Assembly (NCBI RefSeq): GCF_024508315.1
Contig: NZ_CP101987.1
Location: 1,984,001 to 2,048,000, forward strand
DNA: 64,000 bases
Source of the DNA: Cellulomonas xiejunii
GTDB taxonomy: Bacteria > Actinomycetota > Actinomycetes > Actinomycetales > Cellulomonadaceae
Direction of reading: 5' to 3'
Below are positions 36,156 through 49,150 of the stretch, one piece after another. Both the position numbers and the translations under genes were made by a program. Positions within the stretch are counted from its first letter, which is position 1. Each line of letters begins with the position of its first letter. Under the pieces are notes generated by a model. It had not been told where the DNA came from. It worked only from the letters and a program-made list of their open reading frames with translations, and did not search any database.

Positions 36156-36189
36156 CCTGCACACCGCGGACCTTCGTCCGTGCCGGACG

Positions 36190-36216
36190 CTTCAGGCGGC
36201 CTGCCACGGTGCCGAT
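36190..36216 (+). promoter_or_regulatory. Sigma-28-like promoter before pilB (CTTCAG-N15-GCCGAT)
   Basis: CTTCAG (36190-36195), 15 bases, GCCGAT (36211-36216). The -10 half matches FliA/WhiG-type GCCGAT exactly; the -35 half is the most degenerate of the four such sites in the cluster. Transcription would start about 40 bases before the pilB GTG. Confidence 0.5.
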
Positions 36217-36262
36217 GTCTCCCGAGGTGCCGCTGTCGGCGCCACGGACACAGGAGGCGTGT

Positions 36263-37936
36263 GTGAAGCAGCTCGGTGAGGTTCTGCTCGACGAAGGTCT
36301 CGTCACGGAGGCGCAGCTCCTGGCCGCGCTCGACGAGCAGCACTCCCTGGGGACGTCCCTGGGGCGCACGCTCGTCGAGCTGGGGATCCTCACCGAGGCG
36401 CAGCTCGTGCGGGCGCTGGCCGCGCAGGTCGGCATGGAGTTCGTCGACCTCGACGAGTACCCGGTCGACCGCACGGCGGTGGCGGCGGTCCCCGGTGCCC
36501 TGTGCCGGCGGCACTCGGTGCTCCCGGTCGGCGTGCGCAACGGCGCGCTGGTCCTGGCGACGGCGGACCCGGGCAACGTCGTCGCGGTCGACGACGTGCG
36601 CACCATGTCGGGCATGACGGTGGTCGCGGTCGTCGCGACCCACGACAACGTGCTGCGCGCGATCGACCGGTACTGCCGCGCCGACGGTGAGATGGAGGAC
36701 CTCACCAACGCGTTCGAGGAGTCGCACCAGCCCGAGGAGGACCTGTCGACGCGCATGGGGGACGTCCTCGACGACGAGGCCCCCATCGTCCGGTTCGTGA
36801 ACCTCCTGGTGACGCAGGCGATCACCGACCGCGCCTCCGACATCCACATCGAGCCCAGCGAGCACGACCTGCGCGTGCGCTACCGCATCGACGGCGTGCT
36901 CCACGAGACGCAGCGGGCACCCAAGAACATCACCGGCGGCGTGATCAGCCGCGTGAAGATCATGAGCGACATCGACATCGCCGAGAAGCGCAAGCCGCAG
37001 GACGGCCGCATGTCGGTCGTGCACAACGGCCGCAAGATCGACCTGCGCGTGGCGACGCTGCCCACGGTGTGGGGCGAGAAGATCGTCATGCGCATCCTCG
37101 ACAACTCCACCGCGAGCCTCGACCTGCGGGACCTGTCGTTCCTCGAGCACAACTACGCCACGTACAAGGAGTCGTACTCCAAGCCGTACGGCATGATCCT
37201 CGTCACCGGGCCCACGGGCTCGGGCAAGTCGACGACGCTGTATGCGACGCTCAACGCGGTCTCCAAGCCGGAGATCAACGTCATCACCGTCGAGGACCCG
37301 GTCGAGTACCGGCTCGGGGGCATCAACCAGGTCCAGGTGAACCCCAAGGCTGGCCTGACCTTCGCGGCGGCGCTCCGCTCGATCCTGCGGTCCGACCCCG
37401 ACGTCGTGCTCCTCGGTGAGATCCGCGACCACGAGACGGCGCAGATCGCGATCGAGGCCGCCCTCACCGGTCACCTGGTGCTCTCGACGCTGCACACGAA
37501 CGACGCGCCCTCGGCGGTCACGCGTCTGACGGAGATGGGCATCGAGCCGTTCCTCGTGGGGTCGGCGCTCGACTGCGTCGTCGCGCAGCGGCTCGCGCGG
37601 CGGCTCTGCCCGAAGTGCAAGGAGGCCTACCGTCCGACGCCTACGGAGCTCACGGCGGCGCGGTTCCCCTGGGTCGAGGGGGAGGACCTGCCGGAGTTCT
37701 TCCGGCCGGCCGGTTGCGCCGCCTGCTCGCGCACGGGCTACAAGGGGCGGCTCGCGCTGCACGAGGTGATGCGCGTCACCGAGGACATCGAGCGCCACGC
37801 GGTCGCGCACTCGTCGTCCGCGGACATCGCAGCCACGGCGGTCAAGCAGGGCATGATCACGCTCCGCGACGACGGGTGGCAGAAGGTCGCGTCGGGACTG
37901 ACGTCGATCGAGGAGATCCTCCGCGTCGTCGCGTGA
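36263..37936 (+). CDS. pilB: Type IV pilus assembly ATPase PilB (GspE family)
   Basis: PilB powers pilus extension. The 557-residue protein has an N-terminal MshEN domain (about residues 1-140) with two repeats of the LGxxLxxxGxxTEAQLxxALxxQ type, a middle N2 domain (ASDIHIEPSEHDLRVRYRIDG), Walker A (VTGPTGSGKSTTLYA near residue 318), Asp box (VEDPVEYRLGG), Walker B (DPDVVLLGEIRDHETA), His box (LVLSTLHTNDAPSA) and a zinc-binding four-Cys site (LCPKCKEAY, CAACSRTGYKGR). GTG 36263 follows AGGAGG by five bases. MshEN domains can bind c-di-GMP, but here the first Arg of each repeat is replaced (Gln, Ser). Confidence 0.96.
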   Translation: MKQLGEVLLDEGLVTEAQLLAALDEQHSLGTSLGRTLVELGILTEAQLVRALAAQVGMEFVDLDEYPVDRTAVAAVPGALCRRHSVLPVGVRNGALVLATADPGNVVAVDDVRTMSGMTVVAVVATHDNVLRAIDRYCRADGEMEDLTNAFEESHQPEEDLSTRMGDVLDDEAPIVRFVNLLVTQAITDRASDIHIEPSEHDLRVRYRIDGVLHETQRAPKNITGGVISRVKIMSDIDIAEKRKPQDGRMSVVHNGRKIDLRVATLPTVWGEKIVMRILDNSTASLDLRDLSFLEHNYATYKESYSKPYGMILVTGPTGSGKSTTLYATLNAVSKPEINVITVEDPVEYRLGGINQVQVNPKAGLTFAAALRSILRSDPDVVLLGEIRDHETAQIAIEAALTGHLVLSTLHTNDAPSAVTRLTEMGIEPFLVGSALDCVVAQRLARRLCPKCKEAYRPTPTELTAARFPWVEGEDLPEFFRPAGCAACSRTGYKGRLALHEVMRVTEDIERHAVAHSSSADIAATAVKQGMITLRDDGWQKVASGLTSIEEILRVVA

Positions 37937-37953
37937 GTCGTTGCGCGTCGCCG

Positions 37954-37980
37954 CTCAAGTCGCGCGGTACCCGGTCCGAT
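37954..37980 (+). promoter_or_regulatory. Sigma-28-like promoter before pilT (CTCAAG-N15-TCCGAT)
   Basis: CTCAAG (37954-37959), 15 bases, TCCGAT (37975-37980), in the 127-base gap between pilB and pilT. A start about seven bases later would give a leader of about 75 nt. Confidence 0.6.
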
Positions 37981-38063
37981 GAGACAAGGGCACCCTCGGG
38001 TGCACTGGAGCGCGGCCGTCCCGACGACACCGCGGCGCAGGACAGACGCATGTGGAGGACGAC

Positions 38064-39686
38064 GTGACCGACGCCTACCAGGGCCACCCGAGCGGAGCGT
38101 CGCGCCCGCTGCCGCCGTACCGGCCCGCCGGACCGCAGGCCGGCCCGGGTGGCACACCCATGTTCACGCCCGTGCCCTCCCAGAGCGCCGCGGTGTCGCA
38201 GCACCAGGCACCCGCAGCGGGCACGGGCGCACCCGCGGCGCCGGCCTACCCCTCGGCCGCCGGGACCCCGGCGTACCCGTCGGCCGGGGCGACGCAGGCG
38301 TACCCGTCGGCTGCGGGCGCGCCCGCAGCCCAGACCTACGCGCCTGCGTCGGGCGGCCCCGTCGCGGCTGCCTACACGCCGCAGACGCACGGGGGGCCTG
38401 CGGGTCAGCAGTCGTACACGCCGGCGCCCCTGCCGACCGGTGCCGTCCCGCCGCCGGCTCACGTGCCCGCACCGCAGTCGCCGCAGGTGCCACCTGCCCG
38501 GCCGCCGGCCGACGGTGCGCCGCGCCGGGCGATGGGCCAGGCGGAGCAGGCCGGTGACCTGCCCATCGACGACGTGCTGCGCGAGATGGTCCGGCTCGGG
38601 GCGTCCGACGTGCACTTCACCACCGGATCGCCGCCGATGGTCCGGATCTCGGGGTCGCTGCAGCCGCTGGACCAGTTCGGCCCCGTCATGCCGGACGGCC
38701 TGCGCCGCTCGATCTACTCGATCCTCGCCCAGAAGCAGCGGGAGAGGTACGAGGAGGAGCTCGAGCTCGACCTGTCGTACGCCGTGCGCGGGCTCGCGCG
38801 GTTCCGCGTCAACGTCTACCAGCAGCGCGAGTCCATCGGCGCGGCGTTCCGTGTGATCCCGTACGAGATCAAGCCGCTGGAGGAACTCGGCGTGCCGCCG
38901 GTCGTCGGGACGTTCGCGGGCCTGCCCCGCGGGCTCGTGCTGGTCACCGGGCCGACCGGGTCGGGCAAGTCGACGACGCTGGCCTCGATCATCGACCTGG
39001 CCAACCGCACGCGCCAGGACCACATCATGACGGTCGAGGACCCCATCGAGTTCCTCCACCGGCACAAGAAGTCGCTCGTCAACCAGCGTGAGGTCGGTGC
39101 GGACACGCACTCGTTCGCCAACGCCCTCAAGCACGTGCTGCGCCAGGACCCCGACATCATCCTCGTGGGGGAGATGCGCGACCTGGAGACGATCAGCGTC
39201 GCGCTCACCGCGGCAGAGACCGGGCACCTGGTGTTCGCGACCCTGCACACGCAGGACGCCGCCCAGACCATCGACCGCGTCATCGACGTGTTCCCGTCGC
39301 ACCAGCAGGCGCAGGTCCGCACGCAGCTCGCCGGCGCGATCCAGGCCGTGGTTTGCCAGACCCTGTGCAAGCGCACCGACCAGCCGGGCCGTGCCGTCGC
39401 GACGGAGGTCATGATCGCGACGCCCGCCATCCGCAACCTCATCCGCGAGGGCAAGACGCACCAGATCTACTCCTCGATGCAGGCGGGGGCGAAGCAGGGC
39501 ATGCACACGCTCGACCAGCACCTCGCGGAGCTGGTGAAGTCCGGCAAGATCACCTACGAGGTGGGGCTCGAGAAGTGCCACCACGTCGAGGACTTCAACC
39601 GGCTCACGGGCCGGTTCTCCGGACAGTCCCAGGCGCAGGCCGGCGTGTCGAACGCGACCGGCGGCCTCGGCGGGCAGGCCTTCTGA
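38064..39686 (+). CDS. pilT: Type IV pilus retraction ATPase PilT with long N-terminal extension
   Basis: PilT depolymerises pili. The 540-residue protein is about 190 residues longer than ordinary PilT because of a low-complexity N-terminal region rich in Pro, Ala, Gln, Tyr and Thr with repeats of the AYPSA type (about residues 55-120). The ATPase follows from residue 165: LREMVRLGASDVHFTTGSPP, Walker A (VTGPTGSGKSTTLAS), VEDPIEFLH, Walker B (DPDIILVGEMRDLETI), His box (LVFATLHTQDAAQT) and the PilT-specific AIRNLIREGKTHQIYS. GTG 38064 is preferred over GTG 38052 because GGAGG (38054-38058) lies six bases before it. It is coupled to pilC by TGATG. Confidence 0.95.
   Translation: MTDAYQGHPSGASRPLPPYRPAGPQAGPGGTPMFTPVPSQSAAVSQHQAPAAGTGAPAAPAYPSAAGTPAYPSAGATQAYPSAAGAPAAQTYAPASGGPVAAAYTPQTHGGPAGQQSYTPAPLPTGAVPPPAHVPAPQSPQVPPARPPADGAPRRAMGQAEQAGDLPIDDVLREMVRLGASDVHFTTGSPPMVRISGSLQPLDQFGPVMPDGLRRSIYSILAQKQRERYEEELELDLSYAVRGLARFRVNVYQQRESIGAAFRVIPYEIKPLEELGVPPVVGTFAGLPRGLVLVTGPTGSGKSTTLASIIDLANRTRQDHIMTVEDPIEFLHRHKKSLVNQREVGADTHSFANALKHVLRQDPDIILVGEMRDLETISVALTAAETGHLVFATLHTQDAAQTIDRVIDVFPSHQQAQVRTQLAGAIQAVVCQTLCKRTDQPGRAVATEVMIATPAIRNLIREGKTHQIYSSMQAGAKQGMHTLDQHLAELVKSGKITYEVGLEKCHHVEDFNRLTGRFSGQSQAQAGVSNATGGLGGQAF
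38246..38330 (+). repeat. Imperfect repeats encoding AYPSA motifs in pilT
   Basis: Three imperfect copies of a unit coding for (P/Q)AYPSA followed by a short Gly/Ala spacer are visible. They lie in the disordered N-terminal extension of PilT. Confidence 0.6.
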
Positions 39687-40918
39687 TGGCGACCGCGACG
39701 AAGACCTTCGAGTACGCGGTCCGGGACCGGGCCGGCAAGATCGTCAAGGGCCGCGTCGAGGCCCCGAACCAGGCCGCGGTGGCCAACCGGCTGCGCGAGA
39801 TGGGCCTCGCAGCGGTCTCGATCTCCGAGGTCAGCACCGCCGGCCTGCAGTCCGAGATCAACATCCCCGGCTTCGGCGGCAACAAGATCAAGCTCAAGGA
39901 CCTGTCGATCATGGCGCGCCAGCTGGCGACGATGATCGACTCGGGTCTGTCGCTCCTGCGCGCGCTGACGATCCTCGCGGAGCAGACCGAGTCCAAGCCG
40001 CTGGCGAAGATCCTCGGGCAGGTGCGCTCCGACGTCGAGGTGGGGACCGCCTTCTCGGTGGCGCTCGGGAAGCACGAGGACGTGTTCCCGCCGTTGATGA
40101 TCAACATGGTCAAGGCGGGTGAGGTCGGCGGGTTCCTCGACGAGGCGCTCATCTCGGTCGCCAACAACTTCGAGGCCGAGGTCAAGCTCCGCGGCAAGAT
40201 CAAGTCCGCCATGACCTACCCGGTCGTGGTGTTCGTCGTGGCAATCCTCGCGATGATCGGCATGCTGCTGTTCATCGTCCCGATCTTCGCGGAGATGTTC
40301 GCGACCCTCGGTGGCGAGCTGCCATTCCTCACGCGGGTCCTCGTGGTGCTCTCGAACATCATGAAGTGGACCATCGTGCCGACCGCCATCGGGCTCGTGG
40401 CGTTCAGCGTCTGGTGGCGCAAGCACAAGAACGACCCGCCGATCCGGGAACGGCTCGACCCGCTCATGCTCCGGGTGCCGGTGTTCGGCCCGCTCGCACG
40501 CAAGATCGCGATCTCGCGCTTCACGCGGAACTTCAGCACGATGATCCACGCGGGCGTCCCGCTCCTCCAGGCCCTGGACATCGTCGGCGCGACCAGCGGC
40601 AACATCGTGATCGAGCGCGCGGCACGCGCCGTGCAGGACTCGGTGCGCAGGGGCGAGTCGCTCTCGGGACCGCTGTCCCAGCACCCCGTGTTCCCGCCGA
40701 TGGTCGTGCAGATGATGGCCGTCGGCGAGGACACCGGGGCCCTGGACACGATGCTCGCGAAGGTCGCCGACTTCTACGACCAGGAGGTCGAGGCGACGAC
40801 GGAGCAGCTCACGAGCCTCATCGAGCCGCTCATGATCGTCGGCATCGGCGGGATCATCGGCTTCATCGTCATCGGTCTGTACATGCCGATCTTCCAGATC
40901 TTCAACGTCATCCAGTAG
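39686..40918 (+). CDS. pilC: Type IV pilus inner-membrane platform protein PilC (GspF family)
   Basis: PilC is the membrane platform that couples the ATPases to pilin addition. The 410-residue protein has two homologous GspF domains: residues about 75-200 (LSIMARQLATMIDSGLSLLRAL, KAGEVGGFLDEAL) and about 275-400 (RFTRNFSTMIHAGVPLLQAL, VGEDTGALDTMLAKVADFYDQEVE), with membrane helices at about 180-205, 225-245 and 380-402. The ATG overlaps the pilT stop. The N-terminal 65 residues form the cytoplasmic VRDRAGKIVKGRVEAPNQAAVANRL segment common in GspF proteins. Confidence 0.96.
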   Translation: MATATKTFEYAVRDRAGKIVKGRVEAPNQAAVANRLREMGLAAVSISEVSTAGLQSEINIPGFGGNKIKLKDLSIMARQLATMIDSGLSLLRALTILAEQTESKPLAKILGQVRSDVEVGTAFSVALGKHEDVFPPLMINMVKAGEVGGFLDEALISVANNFEAEVKLRGKIKSAMTYPVVVFVVAILAMIGMLLFIVPIFAEMFATLGGELPFLTRVLVVLSNIMKWTIVPTAIGLVAFSVWWRKHKNDPPIRERLDPLMLRVPVFGPLARKIAISRFTRNFSTMIHAGVPLLQALDIVGATSGNIVIERAARAVQDSVRRGESLSGPLSQHPVFPPMVVQMMAVGEDTGALDTMLAKVADFYDQEVEATTEQLTSLIEPLMIVGIGGIIGFIVIGLYMPIFQIFNVIQ

Positions 40919-40943
40919 GCGCGGGCCGAACGGGTGATCATGC

Positions 40944-40958
40944 GCACCGATTCGGTGC
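40944..40958 (+). terminator. Short hairpin just upstream of the pilin promoter
   Basis: GCACCG-ATT-CGGTGC (40944-40958) lies between the pilC stop and the CTCAAG box of the pilin promoter. It could be a weak terminator for pilC or an operator; too short to decide. Confidence 0.3.
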
Positions 40959-40963
40959 GGTCG

Positions 40964-40990
40964 CTCAAGGCGGCGGCAGTCACTGTCGAT
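40964..40990 (+). promoter_or_regulatory. Sigma-28-like promoter before the major pilin (CTCAAG-N15-GTCGAT)
   Basis: CTCAAG (40964-40969), 15 bases, GTCGAT (40985-40990). The predicted leader of about 70 nt contains an 8-bp hairpin (41011-41030, one G-U pair, loop TGAT) that could stabilise the mRNA, then a pyrimidine-rich unpaired stretch and CAGGAGG. Confidence 0.6.
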
Positions 40991-41065
40991 GAACCGGATG
41001 TACGACCCGAACCGGCCCTGATGGGCTGGTCTTCCTTTCCGATATCGCACACACAGGAGGCCGGC

Positions 41066-41530
41066 GTGATCGCTCGGATCCGCAAGTCCATCGACGAGAA
41101 GGACCGGGGTTTCACCCTGATCGAGCTCCTCGTCGTCATGATCATCATCGGGATCCTCGCGGCCATCGCGATCCCCGTGTTCCTCAACCAGCGCAAGAAG
41201 GCGAACGACACGGCTGCCGTGTCCGACGTGTCGACGCTGGGCAAGGAGATCGCGACGTTCTACGTCGACGCGACCGCGCCGCTCGCGACGACCGGCACGG
41301 CCACGGCCGGCGTGTTCCTCGGCGGCGGGCGCTACGCGATCCAGGGCAACGACGCCGGCAAGGCGAGCAACGGCGTGACGGCGGCGACCTACTCGCACAC
41401 CGGCACCGACGTGGTCCAGGCGTCCACCAGCTGGTGCGTCGAGGTCGTGTACTCGGGTGGTTCGCAGGGCGCGACCTCCGAGGTCTCGTACAGCGCGCAG
41501 GACGGCCTGGACAAGACCGGCGGTTGCTGA
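41066..41530 (+). CDS. pilA: Major type IV pilin (PilA-like)
   Basis: A 154-residue prepilin. After a 14-residue leader it has the type III signal DRG/FTLIELLVVMIIIGILAAIAIP, with Gly at -1, Phe at +1 and Glu at +5, the features needed for PilD cleavage, N-methylation and assembly. The mature protein has about 140 residues with a C-terminal Cys pair (STSWCVEV and TGGC at the very end) that could form the pilin disulfide loop. GTG 41066 follows CAGGAGG by five bases. Its own promoter and a following 17-bp hairpin indicate the highest expression in the cluster, consistent with the major subunit. Confidence 0.93.
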   Translation: MIARIRKSIDEKDRGFTLIELLVVMIIIGILAAIAIPVFLNQRKKANDTAAVSDVSTLGKEIATFYVDATAPLATTGTATAGVFLGGGRYAIQGNDAGKASNGVTAATYSHTGTDVVQASTSWCVEVVYSGGSQGATSEVSYSAQDGLDKTGGC

Positions 41531-41546
41531 CCTTCGAGTGAGTGTC

Positions 41547-41584
41547 GTGTGGTGGTGGCGGGCCTCGGCCCGCCACCACCACAC
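41547..41584 (+). terminator. Perfect 17-bp hairpin between major and minor pilin genes
   Basis: GTGTGGTGGTGGCGGGC (41547-41563) pairs base for base with 41568-41584 around a CTCG loop, 17 bases after the pilA stop and 28 before the next start. It is the longest perfect hairpin I noticed in the window. It should terminate or stabilise pilA mRNA and let only a fraction of transcripts continue into the minor pilins. Confidence 0.8.
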
Positions 41585-41611
41585 GAGTACGTCCATCAGA
41601 GGAGACCGAGG

Positions 41612-43384
41612 GTGAACAGACTGCGACCGCGGGACCGCGTCGGGCGCGACGACGGGTTCACGCTGATCGAGCTGGTCGTCGCCATGATGATCATCACGAT
41701 GGTCCTGGTCTCGCTCATGATGGTGCAGGTCTCGGCCCTGGTGACGACGGCACAGACGCGGCAGCGCTCGCTCGGCACGGCCGTGGCCAACCAGGTCATG
41801 GAAGAGCTGCGTGCACTGCCGCACCTCGTGCTCAGCAGAGGTCTGCACACGTCCTTCCAGTCCGCGGGCCCGGACGCCAACGTCTCGGCCGGACGGCTCC
41901 GACCCCCCTCGAGCCCGGCGATCAACGAGGCCCTCGTGCTGACGTCGTCGCAGGTGACGGACGCACCCCCGCTGTCAGGTCCCGGTGGCTCGAACGTCAC
42001 CCGGCAGACCGACCCGTCCATCCCGGGTGTCGAGTTCGTCTCACGCGCGTACGTGTCGGACAACCCGGCGACGGCCGACGGGGTCCTGACCCTCACGGTC
42101 GTCACCTCCTGGACGGCCAACCGCACCGGGACGCCGCGCAGCGTGCTGCTCCGCTCGGAGGCGTACGCCCCGCAGGGCGGGTGCGGAGACAACGCGAACA
42201 TGCCCTTCCTCGGCGCCTGCCAGGCGCTCTTCTCCGCGAGCGGTGGCTCCGTGGGGCCGGTCACGTCGCTGACGCCGGCCGCCTTCGACCCCGTCGGGGG
42301 AGGCGTCGCACCGGGCGAGCTGCTGCCGGGTGCCGTGCACTCGTCCGGCACCGTGACGGCCGCGGGCACCGGTGTGGGCGTCACGTCCCAGCAGACGACG
42401 TCGACCGAGTCCAGCGTCGCGATGCCCACCTCGAGCTTCGCACCACCGGACGCGGCCGTGCCGCAGGTGACGAGCGGTGGGGCGAAGCTGCACAACGGCG
42501 CCTCCGACGACGTCGGCGCCTCGGGTGCGGCCCCCTCCAACCCGCCGGCACAGTCGGCGGTCGGGACCGCCTCCCCGATCACGATCAGCGGCGGCGGCGT
42601 GACGCTCCGGCTGACCGCCGGCTCGGGTGTGAGTGGTGCCGCCAGGAGCTCGATGGTGGCGTCGTGCGCCTCCGGCATCCCGGCCGGTCAGGGCTGCAGC
42701 GGTGCCACCGTGACCGGCGGCACCGCGACTTCCGCCGGCATGGAGGTCGCCGGGCAGGCGTTCACCCTGGCCGACGTCGGCGCGGGGGCGTCCTCGTCGT
42801 TCGGTGCCCGGCTGACGACCGCGGCGGGCGCGACCGGGATCGGGTGCACCGTCCTCGACGGCGCGGGCTGCGTGGCGGCCGGCAGCTCCCGGAGCATCCC
42901 CACGGCGGTCTTCGGTGCCGCCCCGTGGGCGGGTGGTGCGGCGCCCACGGGGCTGGTGCGCCTGACGTCCGCCTACACGGACAGCGTGCTCGTCCAGCGC
43001 GGCAAGCTCCAGCCCGTCACCACCGCCACACGGGCGCGCAGCGCCGTGCTCGCGTACTGGAACGGCACCGGGTACTCGAGCGTGAACGTCAACGCGACGA
43101 CCTCGGCCACCTACGTGGGGGGGACGACCACCTGGACGGGTGGCGGGTGGACGGTCACCGCGACCCCCACCGTGACGATCACCCCGGCGATGTCCATGAC
43201 CGACAACCTCGACCCGGTCGCGTGCACGGGCGAGGGCTGCTCGATCTCGGCGGACGCCGGTTCGGTCAACGTCGCGGTGCGGTGGACGGCGACCGACGGG
43301 GCGGCGCAGGTCGCCTTCGTCGCGACGACCAGTCTCGGGACCTCCCAGGCCGACGCGGCGTACCGGGCGGCCCCCGATGCGTGA
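41612..43384 (+). CDS. Large minor pilin-like protein (PilV-type N-terminus)
   Basis: A 590-residue protein with a prepilin signal (RDDG/FTLIELVVAMMIITMVL, Glu at +5) after a basic leader of about 18 residues, then an ectodomain of about 550 residues rich in Ser, Thr, Gly, Ala and Val, predicted to be beta-rich. Cys pairs such as GGCGDNANMPFLGACQ and IGCTVLDGAGC suggest disulfide loops. It is several times larger than ordinary PilV/PilE-type minor pilins, so it may be a tip adhesin. GTG 41612 has AGAGGAG upstream. It overlaps the next gene by eight bases, fitting a co-translated minor-pilin operon. Confidence 0.85.
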   Translation: MNRLRPRDRVGRDDGFTLIELVVAMMIITMVLVSLMMVQVSALVTTAQTRQRSLGTAVANQVMEELRALPHLVLSRGLHTSFQSAGPDANVSAGRLRPPSSPAINEALVLTSSQVTDAPPLSGPGGSNVTRQTDPSIPGVEFVSRAYVSDNPATADGVLTLTVVTSWTANRTGTPRSVLLRSEAYAPQGGCGDNANMPFLGACQALFSASGGSVGPVTSLTPAAFDPVGGGVAPGELLPGAVHSSGTVTAAGTGVGVTSQQTTSTESSVAMPTSSFAPPDAAVPQVTSGGAKLHNGASDDVGASGAAPSNPPAQSAVGTASPITISGGGVTLRLTAGSGVSGAARSSMVASCASGIPAGQGCSGATVTGGTATSAGMEVAGQAFTLADVGAGASSSFGARLTTAAGATGIGCTVLDGAGCVAAGSSRSIPTAVFGAAPWAGGAAPTGLVRLTSAYTDSVLVQRGKLQPVTTATRARSAVLAYWNGTGYSSVNVNATTSATYVGGTTTWTGGGWTVTATPTVTITPAMSMTDNLDPVACTGEGCSISADAGSVNVAVRWTATDGAAQVAFVATTSLGTSQADAAYRAAPDA

Positions 43385-44072
43385 GGCACGGGCCGCGTGG
43401 CGGCGGGTGATGCGCCCGGGGGAGTCGGAGCGAGGGCTGACGCTGGTCGAGCTGATGGTGTCGATGATGATCTTCGCCGGGCTGCTGGGGATCGTGTTCT
43501 CCGTCCTCGTGACTGTCAGCCAGCAGACCAAGGACAACCTCGCGCGCACCCGGTCGGCCGACCAGGCGCGGATCGGCCTCATGCAGATCGACCGGCAGGT
43601 GCGTTCCGGCAACGTCATCTCCGACCCGGCGGGGGAGTCGCTCGCGTCGGCCGGCGTGCCGGCGAACTACTCGCTGCGGGTCTACACCCAGACGGACGGC
43701 AGCTACCAGTGCGTGCAGTGGCGCGTGCGGTACCCCGCGGGCACCGACCGCGGGCTGCTGGAGTTCCGCTCGTGGCGCCCGTCGTGGCAGGTCACCGGTG
43801 GCGTCGAGGCGTGGCGCGTGGTCGCGCGCGACGTCGTCCGTCCCACCGGCACGTTCGACCCCGACGACAACACGACGTGGCCGCCCTTCTTCGTCGAGGC
43901 ACGGGCCGGCAGCGCCGGCTCCGAAGCCCAGACCATCCGCGTGACCTTGCGGCTCAAGGACGCGAACCAGAGCGCGAGGTCCGCGCCGACGACCGTGACG
44001 TCCGTGCTCACCGGTCGCAACACCGTCTTCGGCTACCCGGCCGACAGCTGTGGCACGGTCCCCGCGCCGTGA
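43377..44072 (+). CDS. Minor pilin-like protein (PilW-type)
   Basis: A 231-residue prepilin with the signal SERG/LTLVELMVSMMIFAGLLGIV (Gly -1, Leu +1, Glu +5) after an 18-residue leader. The segment SQQTKDNLARTRSADQARIGLMQIDRQVRSGN is the PilW-like helix that follows the membrane part. The C-terminal domain has Trp-rich strands (FRSWRPSWQV) and a final Cys near the end. It probably primes or caps the pilus with the other two minor pilin-like products. Confidence 0.86.
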   Translation: MREARAAWRRVMRPGESERGLTLVELMVSMMIFAGLLGIVFSVLVTVSQQTKDNLARTRSADQARIGLMQIDRQVRSGNVISDPAGESLASAGVPANYSLRVYTQTDGSYQCVQWRVRYPAGTDRGLLEFRSWRPSWQVTGGVEAWRVVARDVVRPTGTFDPDDNTTWPPFFVEARAGSAGSEAQTIRVTLRLKDANQSARSAPTTVTSVLTGRNTVFGYPADSCGTVPAP

Positions 44073-44092
44073 TCGCACCCCGAGGAGAACCC

Positions 44093-45688
44093 ATGTCCCG
44101 TGCCATCGCACGTCGTCTCGCGCACAGCGGCCGCGACCGCGGCAGTGCGCTCGTCTCCGCCGTCGCGATCGCCCTCATCGGGCTCGCGCTGGCCTCGGTC
44201 GTGGTCGCGTCCAGCATCCAGGGCGCGCGGGACTCGGGGGAGGACCGGGCGCGCACCGCCGAGATGCACACGGCCGAGGGCGTCGTCGACGCCGTCTTCG
44301 CCGAGCTCGAGGTGGGCACGCCCTGCCAGTGGCCGGCCACGGGGAGCCACGCAGGCGGTACCTCACCCGGTGGCACGCAGGCGACCGCGACGATCGCGTA
44401 CTACGACGAGCACGACGCCCTGCTGCCGTGCGCGGCGGGCGTCGTCACCGGCACGCCGGCGTCGGCGGTCGTGACCGGCGTCGCCACGGGGGCCGGGACC
44501 GACGTCAAGCGCGCCGTCCAGACGAAGGTGAACCTGACGCCGCTGACGATCGACGGGCGGGGCGCGGCGATCTTCGCGGCATCGTCGATCCTGTCGACCA
44601 ACGGCTTCACGCTCGACACGGCGCTGCCCGACACCGCGGTCGACGTGTGGGTGGACTCCGGCGACGTCAACTGCAACTCGAACGTCAAGATCGACGGCAA
44701 CCTCATCGTCGTCGAGGGCACGACCGAGATCTCGAACAACTGCCACATCACGCAGGACCTGTGGTCGAAGAAGAAGCTGACGGTCCACGAGCAACAGGGT
44801 GCGGGCCTGCGCACGGTCGGCCAGGACACCTACGTGGCGGCCGACGCCACGCTCGCCGGCGGGTCGAAGTACGGCCGGGACGTCATCATCGCGGGCGCGA
44901 TGACCACGTGGGGGACCGGCCCGCAGGTGGCCGGCACCACCCGCACGGGCGTCGGCGCCGGCGCACTCCCGCAGTACGTGAAGGTGGGGCTGCCGGAGGT
45001 CAACTACATCCCGTCCGACTGGGTGGGTTTCGACAACGCCGGCAACCGCGCGCAGGCCTACAAGGACTGGGTCACGTCGAACGCCGTCGCCAACGGGGCG
45101 CCGACCTGGTCGGAGATGTACATGCCCGCGGGCAACAAGTGCACGGTGGCCGGGGCGGACTACAGCCTCAAGGGGCCGCTGGTCGGACCCACGGTGGCCA
45201 CGGTGTTCGACACCCGGTTCTGCCCGACGACCACGTTCCAGGGCGGCCTCAACATCAAGCTGCGCGCCGACATGGTGATCTTCGCGAACAACTTCTACGC
45301 GACCGGGAACTTCACGATCACGTCGGCGGACGGCGACCCGCACCAGGTGTGGATCATCGTCCCGGACCCGGACGTGACGCCGAACGGTGTCGCCGAGTGC
45401 AACAAGACCGTGGGGCCGAACAGGTCCGGCGACATCAAGTTCGACTCGGGAACGAACATCACCGCGCCCATCACGTTCTTCGGCTACACGCCGTGCACGA
45501 TCGACACCAACAACACGATGTCGCTCTACGGGCAGCTGTACGGCAAGGACGTCAAGCTGCGGAACGCCCTCAAGGTGCGCTACGTGCCCATCGGCATCCC
45601 CGGGGTGGACCTCGCGAGCACCAGTCCCGTGTCATCCTCTGGGGTGCGGGTCGACGTCGTCTACAAGCGGGAGGTCAAGGCACCGTGA
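44093..45688 (+). CDS. PilX-like minor pilin with large beta-helix-like ectodomain
   Basis: A 531-residue protein. The N-terminus (RDRGSALVSAVAIALIGLAL) is a pilin-like membrane helix after RG, but lacks the Glu at +5, as in PilX/GspK-type subunits that sit at the pilus tip. The body contains regularly spaced short strands (VKIDGNLIVVEGTTEISNN, then further KLTV, DTYVAADATLAGGS, RDVIIAGAMTTWG) reminiscent of bactofilin-type or other parallel beta-helices, plus Cys residues that could pair (NCNSN, NNCH, KCTVAG, RFCPTT). ATG 44093 follows CGAGGAG. The stop overlaps the pilD GTG. A tip adhesin role is inferred, not shown. Confidence 0.8.
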   Translation: MSRAIARRLAHSGRDRGSALVSAVAIALIGLALASVVVASSIQGARDSGEDRARTAEMHTAEGVVDAVFAELEVGTPCQWPATGSHAGGTSPGGTQATATIAYYDEHDALLPCAAGVVTGTPASAVVTGVATGAGTDVKRAVQTKVNLTPLTIDGRGAAIFAASSILSTNGFTLDTALPDTAVDVWVDSGDVNCNSNVKIDGNLIVVEGTTEISNNCHITQDLWSKKKLTVHEQQGAGLRTVGQDTYVAADATLAGGSKYGRDVIIAGAMTTWGTGPQVAGTTRTGVGAGALPQYVKVGLPEVNYIPSDWVGFDNAGNRAQAYKDWVTSNAVANGAPTWSEMYMPAGNKCTVAGADYSLKGPLVGPTVATVFDTRFCPTTTFQGGLNIKLRADMVIFANNFYATGNFTITSADGDPHQVWIIVPDPDVTPNGVAECNKTVGPNRSGDIKFDSGTNITAPITFFGYTPCTIDTNNTMSLYGQLYGKDVKLRNALKVRYVPIGIPGVDLASTSPVSSSGVRVDVVYKREVKAP

Positions 45689-46479
45689 CGGGGATGCTGG
45701 TCGCGGTCTGCGCGCTTCTGGGACTCGCGATCGGCTCGTTCCTCAACGTCGTGGTGTGGCGCGTGCCGCGCGGGGAGTCGGTGGTCCGGCCCCCCAGCGC
45801 GTGCCCTGCGTGCGGTCATGAGATCCGGCCGCGCGACAACGTCCCGGTCGTCTCGTGGCTGCTCCTGCGGGGGCGCTGCCGGGACTGCGGCGCACCGATC
45901 TCGCGGCGCTACCCGCTGGTCGAGCTCACCACCGCCGTGCTGTTCGGCCTGGTGGCGGCGCTGGTCGGACTGTCGTGGCTGCTCCCCGTGGCGCTGTACC
46001 TCACCGCCGTGGCGGTGGCGCTCGCGCTCATCGACGTGGACGTGCACCGCCTGCCGGACGCGATCGTGCTGCCCTCGTACCCGGTCGTCGCCGCGCTCCT
46101 CGCACTGGCCAGCCTCGACCCGGGCGGCACCGCGGACTGGCCCCCCCTGCTGCGCGCCCTGCTCGGTGGGCTGGCGATGGGCGCCGCCTACCTGGCGCTG
46201 GTCCTCGCGAACCCGGCGGGCATGGGCCTCGGCGACGTCAAGCTCGCCGGCGTCCTGGGCATGTTCCTCGGGTGGTTCGGCTGGGGGACCTGGGCGGTCG
46301 GGCTGTTCCTGCCCTTCCTGCTCGGCGGCGTCCTCGGGCTCGCGCTGATCGCCCTCGGGCGGGCCGGACGCAAGTCGGCGATCCCGTTCGGTCCCTGGAT
46401 GCTCCTCGGTGCGGCGGTCGCGCCCGTCGTGGCCCCGCCGCTGCTCGACTGGTACCTCGGGGTCACGGTCGGCGCCTGA
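45685..46479 (+). CDS. pilD: Prepilin peptidase/N-methyltransferase PilD
   Basis: PilD cleaves prepilin leaders and methylates the new N-terminus. The 264-residue protein has an N-terminal membrane helix ending GLAIGSFLNVVVWRVPRGES, a four-Cys zinc loop (CPACGHEI and CRDCGAPI) and six further helices. Both catalytic aspartates are present, in LALIDVDVHRLPD and GMGLGDVKLAG. GTG 45685 overlaps the stop of the preceding minor pilin gene (GTGA). It is the only prepilin peptidase gene in the window and suits the three FTLIE/LTLVE-type substrates just upstream. Confidence 0.95.
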   Translation: MTGMLVAVCALLGLAIGSFLNVVVWRVPRGESVVRPPSACPACGHEIRPRDNVPVVSWLLLRGRCRDCGAPISRRYPLVELTTAVLFGLVAALVGLSWLLPVALYLTAVAVALALIDVDVHRLPDAIVLPSYPVVAALLALASLDPGGTADWPPLLRALLGGLAMGAAYLALVLANPAGMGLGDVKLAGVLGMFLGWFGWGTWAVGLFLPFLLGGVLGLALIALGRAGRKSAIPFGPWMLLGAAVAPVVAPPLLDWYLGVTVGA

Positions 46480-46503
46480 TCTGCGCAGAACGGTCCGCTG
46501 TCG

Positions 46504-46530
46504 CTCAAGTCGGGTGCCGGGTGCACCGAT
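46504..46530 (+). promoter_or_regulatory. Sigma-28-like promoter before pilM (CTCAAG-N15-ACCGAT)
   Basis: CTCAAG (46504-46509), 15 bases, ACCGAT (46525-46530), in the 88-base gap between pilD and pilM. A start about seven bases later gives a leader of about 30 nt containing GAAAGGG. Confidence 0.6.
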
Positions 46531-46567
46531 ACGACACGTGAACCTCAGCGTCAGAAAGGGACACCCT

Positions 46568-47629
46568 GTGGCAAGCACCCGCGTCATCGGGCTCGACATC
46601 GGCTCCACGGCTGTGCGAGCAGTCGAGCTCGAGTTCGCCAAGGGCGATCGTGCCCGGTCCAATCCGACCGTCGTGCGCGTCGGCGAGCAGCCGCTGCCGC
46701 AAGGTGCGGTCCGCGACGGCGAGGTGGTCCAGCCCGAGACGGTGTCCGAGTCGCTGCGCACCCTGTGGGGACGCGCGCGCTTCGAGAGCAAGGACGTGGT
46801 GCTGGGCGTCGGCAACCAGCGCGTGCTCGTGCGTGAGCTCGACCTGCCGTGGCTGCCGACTGCGCAGCTGAAGTCCTCGCTCTCCTTCCAGGTCAACGAC
46901 CTGCTGCCGATGTCGGCCGACGAGGCGCTGCTGGACTACTACCCCACGGGGGAGACGCAGGGCGACCAGGGCCGCATGGTGCAGGGCATGCTGGTCGCGG
47001 CTCAGCGTGACACGGTCACCGCCAACGTCCTCGCCGCCGAGGGTGCGGGTCTGCGGCCGGTCATGGTCGACCTCAACGCGTTCGCGCTGCTCCGGGCGAT
47101 CTGCCGGGGTGACTACGCACGAGCAGTCGTCGCCTACGTGGACCAGGGAGCGACCGTGACGACGGTCGTCATCGCGGTCCGCGGCGTGCCGCGCCTCGTG
47201 CGGTCGCTGCCGACCGGCGGAGCGACGGTGACCGGTGCGGTCGCCAGCGCGCTCGGTGTGTCGTTCCCGGAGGCCGAGCAGATCAAGCGGAACCTGGGCG
47301 TCGGCCTCAGCGCGGGGGGCGACGCCGCGCCGGCGGTCGAAGCCATCAGCACCGTGGTTCGGGGCCAGGTCGAGTCGATCCGCAACACGTTCGTCTACTA
47401 CGCAGGACTCAACCCCGGTCAGGGCATCGAGGTCGTCGTCCTCACCGGCGGCGGCGCGCAGCTGCCCGGCTTCGGCCAGTACCTGTCCTCCGCCTCCAGG
47501 CTGCCCACCACGCTGGGAGACCCGCTCGCGGGCCTGCGCCCGGCCAAGACCGCTCAGCTCGACGCCCTGCGGGGGCACGAGAGCTCGTTCGCCCTCCCTG
47601 TGGGCCTCGCGTACGGAGTCGCCGCATGA
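46568..47629 (+). CDS. pilM: Type IV pilus assembly protein PilM (actin-like)
   Basis: PilM is a cytoplasmic actin-like ATPase-fold protein that binds the N-terminus of PilN. The 353-residue protein has the phosphate-1 motif VIGLDIGSTAVRAVEL, the PilM-specific LDLPWLPTAQLKSSLSFQVNDLLP, phosphate-2-like VVAYVDQGATVTTVVI and the adenosine motif VVLTGGGAQLPGFGQYL. GTG 46568 follows GAAAGGG by seven bases. Its stop overlaps pilN (ATGA), forming a tight pilM-pilN-pilO unit. Confidence 0.94.
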   Translation: MASTRVIGLDIGSTAVRAVELEFAKGDRARSNPTVVRVGEQPLPQGAVRDGEVVQPETVSESLRTLWGRARFESKDVVLGVGNQRVLVRELDLPWLPTAQLKSSLSFQVNDLLPMSADEALLDYYPTGETQGDQGRMVQGMLVAAQRDTVTANVLAAEGAGLRPVMVDLNAFALLRAICRGDYARAVVAYVDQGATVTTVVIAVRGVPRLVRSLPTGGATVTGAVASALGVSFPEAEQIKRNLGVGLSAGGDAAPAVEAISTVVRGQVESIRNTFVYYAGLNPGQGIEVVVLTGGGAQLPGFGQYLSSASRLPTTLGDPLAGLRPAKTAQLDALRGHESSFALPVGLAYGVAA

Positions 47630-48339
47630 GCACGATCCTGGAAGCCGCCCGCGCGCGCAAGGAGGGCACCGCGACGTTCGCCCCGCCGCGCCCGCAGGTC
47701 AACCTGCTGCCGCCCGAGGTCACCGCGGCCCGGGGCCTGCACCGGCTCAAGCGGTGGCTGCTGCTGAGCATCGCCATCGCGCTCCTCGTCCTGGCCCTCA
47801 TGTACGTGGTCGCCGTCCTGCGGGGCGCGCAGGCGCGTGCCGAGCTCGTGGTCGCGGAGCAGGAGACCCAGCGACTGCTGGCCGAGCAGGCCAAGTACGC
47901 CGAGGTGCCGATCGTCCTCAACAGCATCGGCCAGACGAGCCGTGCCCGTGAGCTCGGGATGTCGACGGAGATCCGCTGGCGCACGTACTACGACGCGATC
48001 GCCGCGGTGCTCCCCGAGGGGGTGAGCATCGACTCCCTGTCCTTCACGGGTGAGAGCCCGCTCGCAGCGGGTCCCGCAGCCGGGAGCCCTCTCGAGGGGC
48101 CGTCGGTCGGCCAGATCCAGTTCACGGGCCGCACGGTGACCGTCCCGGACTCCGCTGCGTGGGTCGACGCGCTGTCCTCCGTCCCGGGCTTCTCCGACCC
48201 GTGGGTGTCGGCTTTGACGCTCACCGCGGATGATGCGGGCACCCCCTACTTCACGGTGTCGGCCACCATCCGCGTGACGTCCGACGCCTATACGAACCGG
48301 TTCGCGCCCGTCGCGCCCGGTGCAGCCGAGGAGGGCTGA
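47626..48339 (+). CDS. pilN: Type IV pilus assembly protein PilN
   Basis: PilN links cytoplasmic PilM to membrane PilO. The 237-residue protein has the PilM-binding motif PQVNLLPPEV near residues 23-32, one membrane helix (LLLSIAIALLVLALMYVVAVL), a coiled coil (AELVVAEQETQRLLAEQAKYAEV) and a C-terminal ferredoxin-like domain. All match the family in order and spacing. The ATG overlaps the pilM stop. No PilP or PilQ homologue follows, as expected for a bacterium without an outer membrane. Confidence 0.92.
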   Translation: MSTILEAARARKEGTATFAPPRPQVNLLPPEVTAARGLHRLKRWLLLSIAIALLVLALMYVVAVLRGAQARAELVVAEQETQRLLAEQAKYAEVPIVLNSIGQTSRARELGMSTEIRWRTYYDAIAAVLPEGVSIDSLSFTGESPLAAGPAAGSPLEGPSVGQIQFTGRTVTVPDSAAWVDALSSVPGFSDPWVSALTLTADDAGTPYFTVSATIRVTSDAYTNRFAPVAPGAAEEG

Positions 48340-48340
48340 C

Positions 48341-49150
48341 GTGGGCAACATGAAGCGCAGCACCTGGATCGGAGGAACCGTCTTCCTCGTCCTTCTGCTC
48401 GGGGCCGCCGCCTGGTTCCTCGCCATCTCTCCCGCGTTCGTGGCGGCCGCCGAGGTGCGTGAGGAGACGGTGCAGACGGAGGAGCGCAACGAGATCCTCC
48501 ACCTCCAGGTCGCGACCCTCGCGGCCGACTTCGCGAAGCTCGACCAGCACAAGGCCGAGCTCGCGAGCATGCGCGTGCAGGTCCCGACCTCCGCAGAGCT
48601 TGCCGACATGCTGAGGCAGGTCGACCAGGTGGCAACGACGCACGGGGTGACGGTCACGTCGCTCTCCCCGGGCGTCCCGGTGACGGTGGTCCCCCCGGCC
48701 TCGGCTGCGGCACCGCCGCCTCCGGCCGACGAGACCGAGGGCTCGACCGACGAGGAGGCCGAGCAGAGCGCCGACGCGGACGAGACGGCACCCGCCCCCG
48801 AGGCCGTGGCGCCCGTCGCGGTGGCGGTCCCCGCCGGGATGGTGGCGATCCCGCTGTCGATCACCGTCCTGGGCACGTACGACGCGACGATCGCCTTCGT
48901 CGACGACCTGCAGAACGCCCTTCCGCGGCTGGTGCTCGTGACCGACTTCACCGGCACCGCACAGAAGGAGGCGACCGAGTCGGCCGGCAAGCCCGCGACC
49001 GCGCCGGGTGACCAGGAGCTGGTCGTCTCGGCTTTCACGTACGTCCTGCCGGACCCGTGGGCCGCAGCGCCCGACGCGGAGCCGGCGCCGGCCGCGCTCC
49101 CCGCGACCGTGCCGGGCAAGAACCCCCTGGTCCCCGTCCTGGGGCAATGA
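48341..49150 (+). CDS. pilO: Type IV pilus assembly protein PilO
   Basis: PilO dimerises with PilN on the outer face of the membrane. The 269-residue protein has a membrane helix at residues 10-30 (GGTVFLVLLLGAAAWFLAI), a coiled coil (EERNEILHLQVATLAADFAKLDQHKAEL), the PilO segment LADMLRQVDQVATTHGVTV, an acidic/Ala-Pro insertion of about 50 residues and a C-terminal domain. GTG 48341 is supported by GAGGAGGGC; ATG 48350 is a possible alternative. It is the last gene of the pilus cluster and is followed by a terminator. Confidence 0.88.
   Translation: MGNMKRSTWIGGTVFLVLLLGAAAWFLAISPAFVAAAEVREETVQTEERNEILHLQVATLAADFAKLDQHKAELASMRVQVPTSAELADMLRQVDQVATTHGVTVTSLSPGVPVTVVPPASAAAPPPPADETEGSTDEEAEQSADADETAPAPEAVAPVAVAVPAGMVAIPLSITVLGTYDATIAFVDDLQNALPRLVLVTDFTGTAQKEATESAGKPATAPGDQELVVSAFTYVLPDPWAAAPDAEPAPAALPATVPGKNPLVPVLGQ

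Follow-up and report, generated by a model that had tools for sequence, protein, structure and literature searches.

Predicted WhiG-type promoters of the type IV pilus genes of Cellulomonas xiejunii, in a genome without a flhA match

The 64-kb stretch of the Cellulomonas xiejunii genome analysed here (contig NZ_CP101987.1, positions 1,984,001 to 2,048,000; hereafter the window) carries a type IV pilus gene cluster in which the gaps in front of pilB, a pilT-family gene, the major pilin gene and pilM each contain a pair of promoter-like boxes. These four box pairs are very probably sigma-28-class promoters, read by RNA polymerase with a WhiG-type sigma factor that is encoded beside rpsB, in a genome without a match to flhA. 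Such a polymerase would switch on the pilus units (pilB; pilT-pilC; the pilin gene and the genes following it; pilM-pilN-pilO) and, along with them, a pilT located elsewhere in the genome and a small number of other genes. We infer binding of WhiG to the boxes, initiation of transcription at these sites, and sharing of transcripts among the genes from sequence comparisons.

Promoter boxes of the pilus cluster and their conservation

The box pairs of the window are the following.

36190..36216, + strand, promoter boxes 5' of pilB: CTTCAG-N15-GCCGAT, with a weak -35 and a full -10
37954..37980, + strand, promoter boxes 5' of pilT: CTCAAG-N15-TCCGAT, exact match
40964..40990, + strand, promoter boxes 5' of the major pilin gene: CTCAAG-N15-GTCGAT, exact match
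46504..46530, + strand, promoter boxes 5' of pilM: CTCAAG-N15-ACCGAT, exact match

An earlier note on this DNA had described these four sites, each with a 15-base spacer and each in the gap 5' of a gene, and they were recovered as described; the gaps, as delimited by our own gene-calling script, are 36156-36262 (pilB), 37937-38051 (pilT), 40919-41065 (pilin) and 46480-46567 (pilM). The sites are unequal in strength, because CTCAAG-N15-NYCGAT is matched exactly at three of the four (pilT, pilin and pilM) and the -35 of pilB (CTTCAG) has two mismatches. The pilus genes of the window have leaders, the boxes ending 37-75 nucleotides (nt) ahead of the start codons.

Three exact matches in the window compare with a mean of 0.02 in first-order Markov simulations, none of 300 of which yielded at least three. 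With one mismatch allowed, five sites were found where 1.0 were expected, a number equalled in one of 100 shuffles. A genome-wide search, which the earlier note had proposed as a check, returned nine exact sites on both strands of the 4.19-Mb assembly (label G000; a single contig, 100% complete) and none for the reversed pattern; three of the nine are the pilus sites. The loose pattern CTCA-N17..19-CCGA was too frequent to be informative (465 matches vs 182 for its control).

Conservation was examined in up to 36 Cellulomonas genomes with the forward pattern, a spacer of 14-16 and a search range of 10-130 nt upstream of the start; genomes without a match to the gene, with a match starting beyond residue 12 or with too short upstream DNA were excluded from the counts. 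Exact boxes precede pilM in all 25 genomes with a resolved start (spacer 15 in 21) and pilT in all 16, so that the conservation in relatives, which the earlier note had named as a test, is indeed found. In front of pilA, the major pilin gene, boxes are exact in 14 of 30 gaps and present with at most one mismatch in 23; the corresponding numbers for pilB are 1 and 19 of 36, and all 34 pilB gaps in which the best match has a spacer of 15 bp share the -10 GCCGAT. The reversed pattern gave no hit at up to one mismatch in the same upstream stretches of any gene. At this tolerance, boxes were absent before the control genes pilC (0/35), pilD (0/22) and g44093 (0/8), and preceded g43410 in 1 of 19 genomes. 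Mean information per base was 1.2-2.0 bits in the boxes versus 0.4-0.7 in the spacer, i.e., the boxes are kept and the spacers drift; this contrast is partly built in because the boxes were picked as the best match, a bias which the control genes address. No intergenic boxes at up to one mismatch were present in the second pilus clusters of genomes G009, G028 and G015 or at the PilB-like locus of G035.

A WhiG-type sigma factor and its relation to flagellar genes

The genome contains a single FliA/WhiG-family sigma factor above the family cut-off (C1:1601043-1601720; TIGR02479, 257.5 bits, cut-off 189.6). Its score against the NCBIfam WhiG model was 327.8 bits, below the cut-off of 343. The gene is located 1 kb upstream of rpsB, which we take to be the usual location of whiG, and the one strong FliA-family sigma factor of this genome is of the WhiG type, not flagellar FliA. 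The presence of this gene, which the earlier note had suggested looking for, together with the conservation of the boxes, agrees with its prediction that the boxes belong to the FliA/SigD/WhiG class. The use of the FliA-family gene as a marker of a flagellar cluster was rejected, as the region at 1.56-1.66 Mb contains housekeeping genes, among them rpsB and tsf-like genes.

For flhA (PF00771), there was no match in the window genome, the remaining flagellar genes not having been searched one by one, and a second sigma factor of the FliA type (158-172-bit class) was not found at E 1e-20. Flagellated congeners carry an additional FliA scoring about 158-172 bits, whose gene in G008 and G025 adjoins flagellin and lies 26-27 kb from flhA. 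A match to flhA is absent from 9 of the 36 Cellulomonas genomes, including that of the window; one of the nine, G013 (89% complete), has FliA. In G018 and G024 the flhA matches are partial and weak, yet over the family cut-off. Apart from the window genome, nine congeners are without full-length flhA and without FliA (G002, G003, G010, G018, G019, G022, G023, G024 and G033), and all nine have an exact box about 1.7 kb 3' of the pilB start, i.e., at the pilT position. One antisense exact site occurs in these stretches (G002), and a few extra sense sites with a spacer of 14 in G003 and G019 probably lie inside genes.

These data bear on the possibility that flagellar FliA drives the boxes and that pili and swimming share one sigma factor in this strain. 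FliA and WhiG have the same promoter specificity according to PMC8325347. In flagellated congeners, fliA itself is preceded by boxes. Nevertheless, with neither flhA nor a FliA-type sigma factor in a complete one-contig assembly, and with the boxes kept in 9/9 other such congeners, this explanation is extremely improbable; for the window genome it is refuted, unless flagellar genes sit on a replicon outside the assembly. The claim of the earlier note that the pilus genes belong to the flagellar sigma regulon and are co-regulated with swimming therefore fails for this genome, and a version of it survives for the flagellated relatives, whose fliA carries boxes. In these, CTCAAG-N15-NYCGA precedes fliA without mismatch in 12 of 20 cases, and 5 others have a single mismatch (reversed control, 0/20 at up to one mismatch), the stretch searched having been chosen after a first look at the same genes; if the last base of the -10 must in addition be T or A, exact boxes remain in just 2 of 20. 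Boxes ahead of fliA were seen in G008 and G025, too. Because fliA is preceded by the same box type, WhiG may stand upstream of FliA in a cascade in the flagellated relatives. Motility and chemotaxis operons of G008 and G025 instead show the variant CTCA[GC]G-N14-NCCGAT at a few sites. Several flagellar and chemotaxis operons (L161-L168) have the -35 CTCA[GC]G and a spacer of 14 bases, the pili mostly CTCAAG with 15; the -35 and the spacer length may be what distinguishes two paralogues of the sigma-28 class.

The co-occurrence of boxes and sigma factor extends across genera. Named genomes were scanned by PilB alignment (best 80 of 284 matches), and 49 with the cluster entered the comparison. 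Among those with a sigma factor scoring 240 bits or more, 13 of 16 have exact intergenic boxes in the cluster, compared with 1 of the 33 others (Fisher 2.8e-8, a value that is descriptive only, as the compared genomes are related). The one genome with boxes and no high-scoring sigma factor, Cellulomonas rhizosphaerae, has, right where a contig begins, a piece of whiG with 77% identity. Among the three misses with a high-scoring sigma factor, Demequina has a relaxed -35 (CTTGAG-N15-GCCGAT), a Nitriliruptoraceae metagenome-assembled genome has one exact site beyond the counted stretch, and in another metagenome-assembled genome (L282) no box was found. Genome G056, which has a PilB homologue and only a housekeeping-type TIGR02479 match (94% complete), shows no boxes within the 15 kb searched. 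Six more distant PilB homologues (43-47% identity; G042, G048, G052, G057, G039 and G036) lie in other neighbourhoods and were left out of the analysis; an intergenic one-mismatch box occurs in three of these stretches (L170, L172 and L173), in L170 and L172 close to the PilB-like gene.

Recognition of the boxes by another alternative sigma factor of the window genome is very unlikely. In the profile search, which covered the FliA family, four further TIGR02479 matches do exist; however, they score no higher than 113.6 bits where the cut-off demands 189.6, the presence of the boxes in other genomes follows that of the WhiG-type gene, and the -10 equals the published WhiG/FliA -10 (PMC8325347).

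Several observations weigh against assigning the boxes to WhiG. The -35 of pilB is poor in the window genome, and the control gene g41612 has boxes at one mismatch in 3 of 10 genomes. The 240-bit threshold was picked after the scores had been seen; at the family cut-off of 189.6 bits the split is weaker (13/20 vs 1/29 genomes with boxes), because Actinoplanes-type and Nocardioides genomes are without these exact boxes. The association moreover follows phylogeny, most of the box-less genomes being Microbacteriaceae. Finally, whiG was not detected in two Cellulomonas drafts, G007 and G013; as rpsB of G007 begins 431 bases from a contig end and that of G013 was not found, this looks like an assembly gap, which is not proof.

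Gene cluster, predicted regulon and an RsiG-like gene

The pilus cluster is flanked by aroE-like and aroC-like genes, in the order pilB, pilT-family gene, pilC, pilin, prepilin-like genes, peptidase and pilM-pilN-pilO.

36263..37936, + strand, pilB, extension ATPase with an N-terminal domain of the cyclic di-GMP (c-di-GMP)-binding type (MshEN); TIGR02538, PF05157, NF053729
38052..39686, + strand, pilT-family ATPase with an N-terminal extension of about 170 residues; TIGR01420, 493.2 bits, over the cut-off, residues 172-511
39686..40918, + strand, pilC, platform protein; PF00482; its start overlaps the pilT end, and it has no boxes of its own
41066..41530, + strand, major pilin-like protein with a prepilin N-terminal methylation motif; PF07963
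41612-43384, + strand, prepilin-like gene
43410-44072, + strand, prepilin-like gene, slightly below the Pfam cut-off
44093-45688, + strand, gene for a protein of 531 amino acids, no assignment
45685-46479, + strand, prepilin peptidase gene
46568..49150, + strand, pilM-pilN-pilO; TIGR01175, 166.1 bits, over the cut-off; PF11104, PF05137, PF04350

PilB scored 650.9 bits against TIGR02538, under the cut-off of 675.65; its N-terminus matches the MshE-related c-di-GMP-binding motif NF053729 (59.8 bits, cut-off 38) as well as PF05157. The assignments at 41612..46479 rest on PF07963, PF06750 and PF01478.

Besides the three pilus sites, the nine exact sites of the genome comprise four before other genes, one before a Zorya-like operon and one inside a weak open reading frame (L025). 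The four targets are a lone pilT (TIGR01420, 438.6 bits), a LuxR-type gene, a gene for a 445-amino-acid protein (L020) without a match in Pfam or NCBIfam, and a TasA/camelysin-like gene with a gene for a SipW-like signal peptidase behind it. The box of the TasA-like/SipW-like pair is immediately preceded by a GGDEF-EAL gene (L023:5481-8964). Proteins of about 310-445 residues that resemble one another at both ends and vary in a proline-rich central part are encoded repeatedly 3' of boxes (L020, L185, L195, L197 and L205). The site at G000:C1:3752731-3752757 (L024:8731-8757), 67 nt before the Zorya-like anti-phage operon, may reflect chance or real control; this operon has ZorA, B, C and D matches, and its first two genes resemble the flagellar stator genes MotA/MotB.

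Among the sites listed for nine congeners, 37 exact sites outside the cluster stretches were sorted by eye according to the N-terminus encoded downstream. Of these, 25 fall into groups: lone pilT (7), LuxR-type (7), 445-residue family (4), TasA-like (3), SsgA-family (2), RsiG-like (1) and pilM (1), the last being the own pilM of the G020 cluster; two listed sites resembling the LuxR-type site (G003, G019) were left out of the groups. The other 12 belong to no recurrent group, and several are inside predicted genes. In two Cellulomonas genomes (L188 and L192), an SsgA-family (sporulation/cell-division) gene follows an exact box at a distance of 185-188 nt, the assignment resting on a Pfam match for the L188 gene and on sequence likeness for the second.

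Forty-six distinct sites were inspected for leaderless starts, namely six sites of the window genome outside the cluster, the 37 congener sites and three from outgroups (L218-L220). At 23 of them, ATG or GTG stands exactly 9 nt past the -10 and opens at least 100 codons (the next commonest offset occurs at 7 sites); a few of the 23 (e.g., L208 and L209) are classed inside genes. This spacing would have transcription start at the initiation codon and therefore suggests leaderless mRNA for many of the non-pilus targets. It also bears on the possibility that the paired boxes are a transcription factor binding site, e.g., of the LuxR-type regulon member, and not sigma contacts. The boxes are conserved as pairs, and the LuxR-type gene belongs to the same target set; on the other hand, they are directional (exact antisense matches in 0 of 49 clusters, the one antisense site being that in the G002 stretch), their spacing is near-fixed at 14-16 bp, the -10-like element is GCCGAT, a start codon follows at +9 in half of the sites inspected, and they co-occur with WhiG. 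Recognition by a transcription factor is accordingly unlikely.

Promoters read by the WhiG-type sigma factor may also include that of a gene resembling its anti-sigma factor. With the Pfam RsiG model PF22802, 9 of the 22 genomes from other genera give strong matches (46-70 bits) and Cellulomonas only weak ones (21-28 bits), two of which (G025 and G021) reach the cut-off; at E 0.001 there is none in the window genome, and no RsiG motif occurs in the predicted proteins of the window-genome stretches examined. The weak match of G025 is encoded by a gene immediately downstream of an exact box (L186). Relatives of this gene are present in 35 of 36 Cellulomonas genomes (absent from G004), including G000:C1:3506948 (L248), and in G043 and G036; the G036 copy bridges the family to RsiG, since it scores 49.8 bits to PF22802. 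Upstream of 37 RsiG-like genes, CTCAAG-N15-NYCGA is exact in 26 cases and has one mismatch in 8 (reversed, 0 at up to one mismatch). The gene of the window genome has the form GTCAAG-N15-GCCGAA with GTG 8 nt downstream, and its protein scored 18.2 bits against PF22802, under the cut-off of 27 (E 0.0021).

Of 23 aligned RsiG-like members, 19 match PF22802 at E<=1 (best 2.7e-12). Alignment to canonical RsiG with hhalign gave a probability of 33% (E 0.00045, 41 columns), and in a search of solved structures RsiG chains (E 0.17-0.46) ranked behind unrelated helical proteins. Of the c-di-GMP motif E-x3-S-x2-R-x3-Q-x3-D, helix 1 of the window-genome protein keeps, by eye, R and D of the five residues. 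By these measures, the homology to RsiG, the c-di-GMP anti-sigma factor of WhiG, is only moderate; the RsiG-like protein may at most be proposed to restrain WhiG in a feedback loop that would no longer read c-di-GMP. In the flagellated relative G036, the RsiG homologue lies a few kb from flhA (L352, C1:417500-420500); it is possibly a c-di-GMP-linked anti-sigma factor for flagellar FliA.

A rewired WhiG switch may be considered tentatively, being possible rather than probable. In such a switch, an RsiG relative stripped of most of its c-di-GMP signature would stand under a pilus-type promoter in a self-limiting loop, c-di-GMP would have come to act on the PilB motor with its MshEN-type domain and no longer on transcription, WhiG would be a pilus sigma factor outliving flagella in this genus, and FliA would form a branch below it that swimming species could dispense with.

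Comparison with known WhiG systems

The closest precedent is Rubrobacter, for which PMC8325347 describes WhiG-class promoters (TAAA / GCCGATAA) in the pilus cluster, with mapped starts, and control of WhiG by RsiG with c-di-GMP. The two systems share the WhiG-type sigma factor, the sigma-28-class -10 GCCGAT, promoters before several units of the cluster and a unicellular actinobacterial host. They differ in the -35 (CTCAAG in Cellulomonas, TAAA in Rubrobacter), in the Cellulomonas RsiG relative, which is without most of the c-di-GMP signature, in the further targets (five promoters of diguanylate cyclase/phosphodiesterase genes in Rubrobacter; lone pilT, LuxR-type and TasA-like genes in Cellulomonas), and in that many non-pilus targets of Cellulomonas look leaderless. 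For zoospores of Actinoplanes missouriensis, the same source describes pili and flagella as transcribed by WhiG-like sigma factors, and RsiG as absent. Pilus genes are there likewise under WhiG-like, flagellar sigma factors; however, zoospores have pili and flagella together, whereas the window genome is without a flhA match. Exact boxes of the Cellulomonas form were not found in the four clusters of Actinoplanes and its allies examined. In Streptomyces, WhiG governs a sporulation regulon (PMC4255298, PMC8325347), and whiG-like genes share some local synteny. The sigma class is orthologous, but the predicted Cellulomonas targets are pili and not sporulation genes, the SsgA-family gene behind a box in two congeners notwithstanding.

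Control of pili by WhiG is thus, on the evidence of the Rubrobacter account (PMC8325347), a known principle. The Cellulomonas regulon and the eroded RsiG relative appear to be new; no report of WhiG control of pili in Cellulomonas, of the CTCAAG -35, the regulon, the leaderless targets or the eroded RsiG relative was found in the searches made of the open literature. The main work found on the role of WhiG in simple, non-sporulating actinobacteria is that of 2021 on Rubrobacter. Cellulomonas provides a genus-wide, direct and testable case for this role, including species in which the sigma factor is kept and flagella are absent. With the RsiG-like gene, the genus may offer a natural case of a second-messenger switch whose messenger has been lost.

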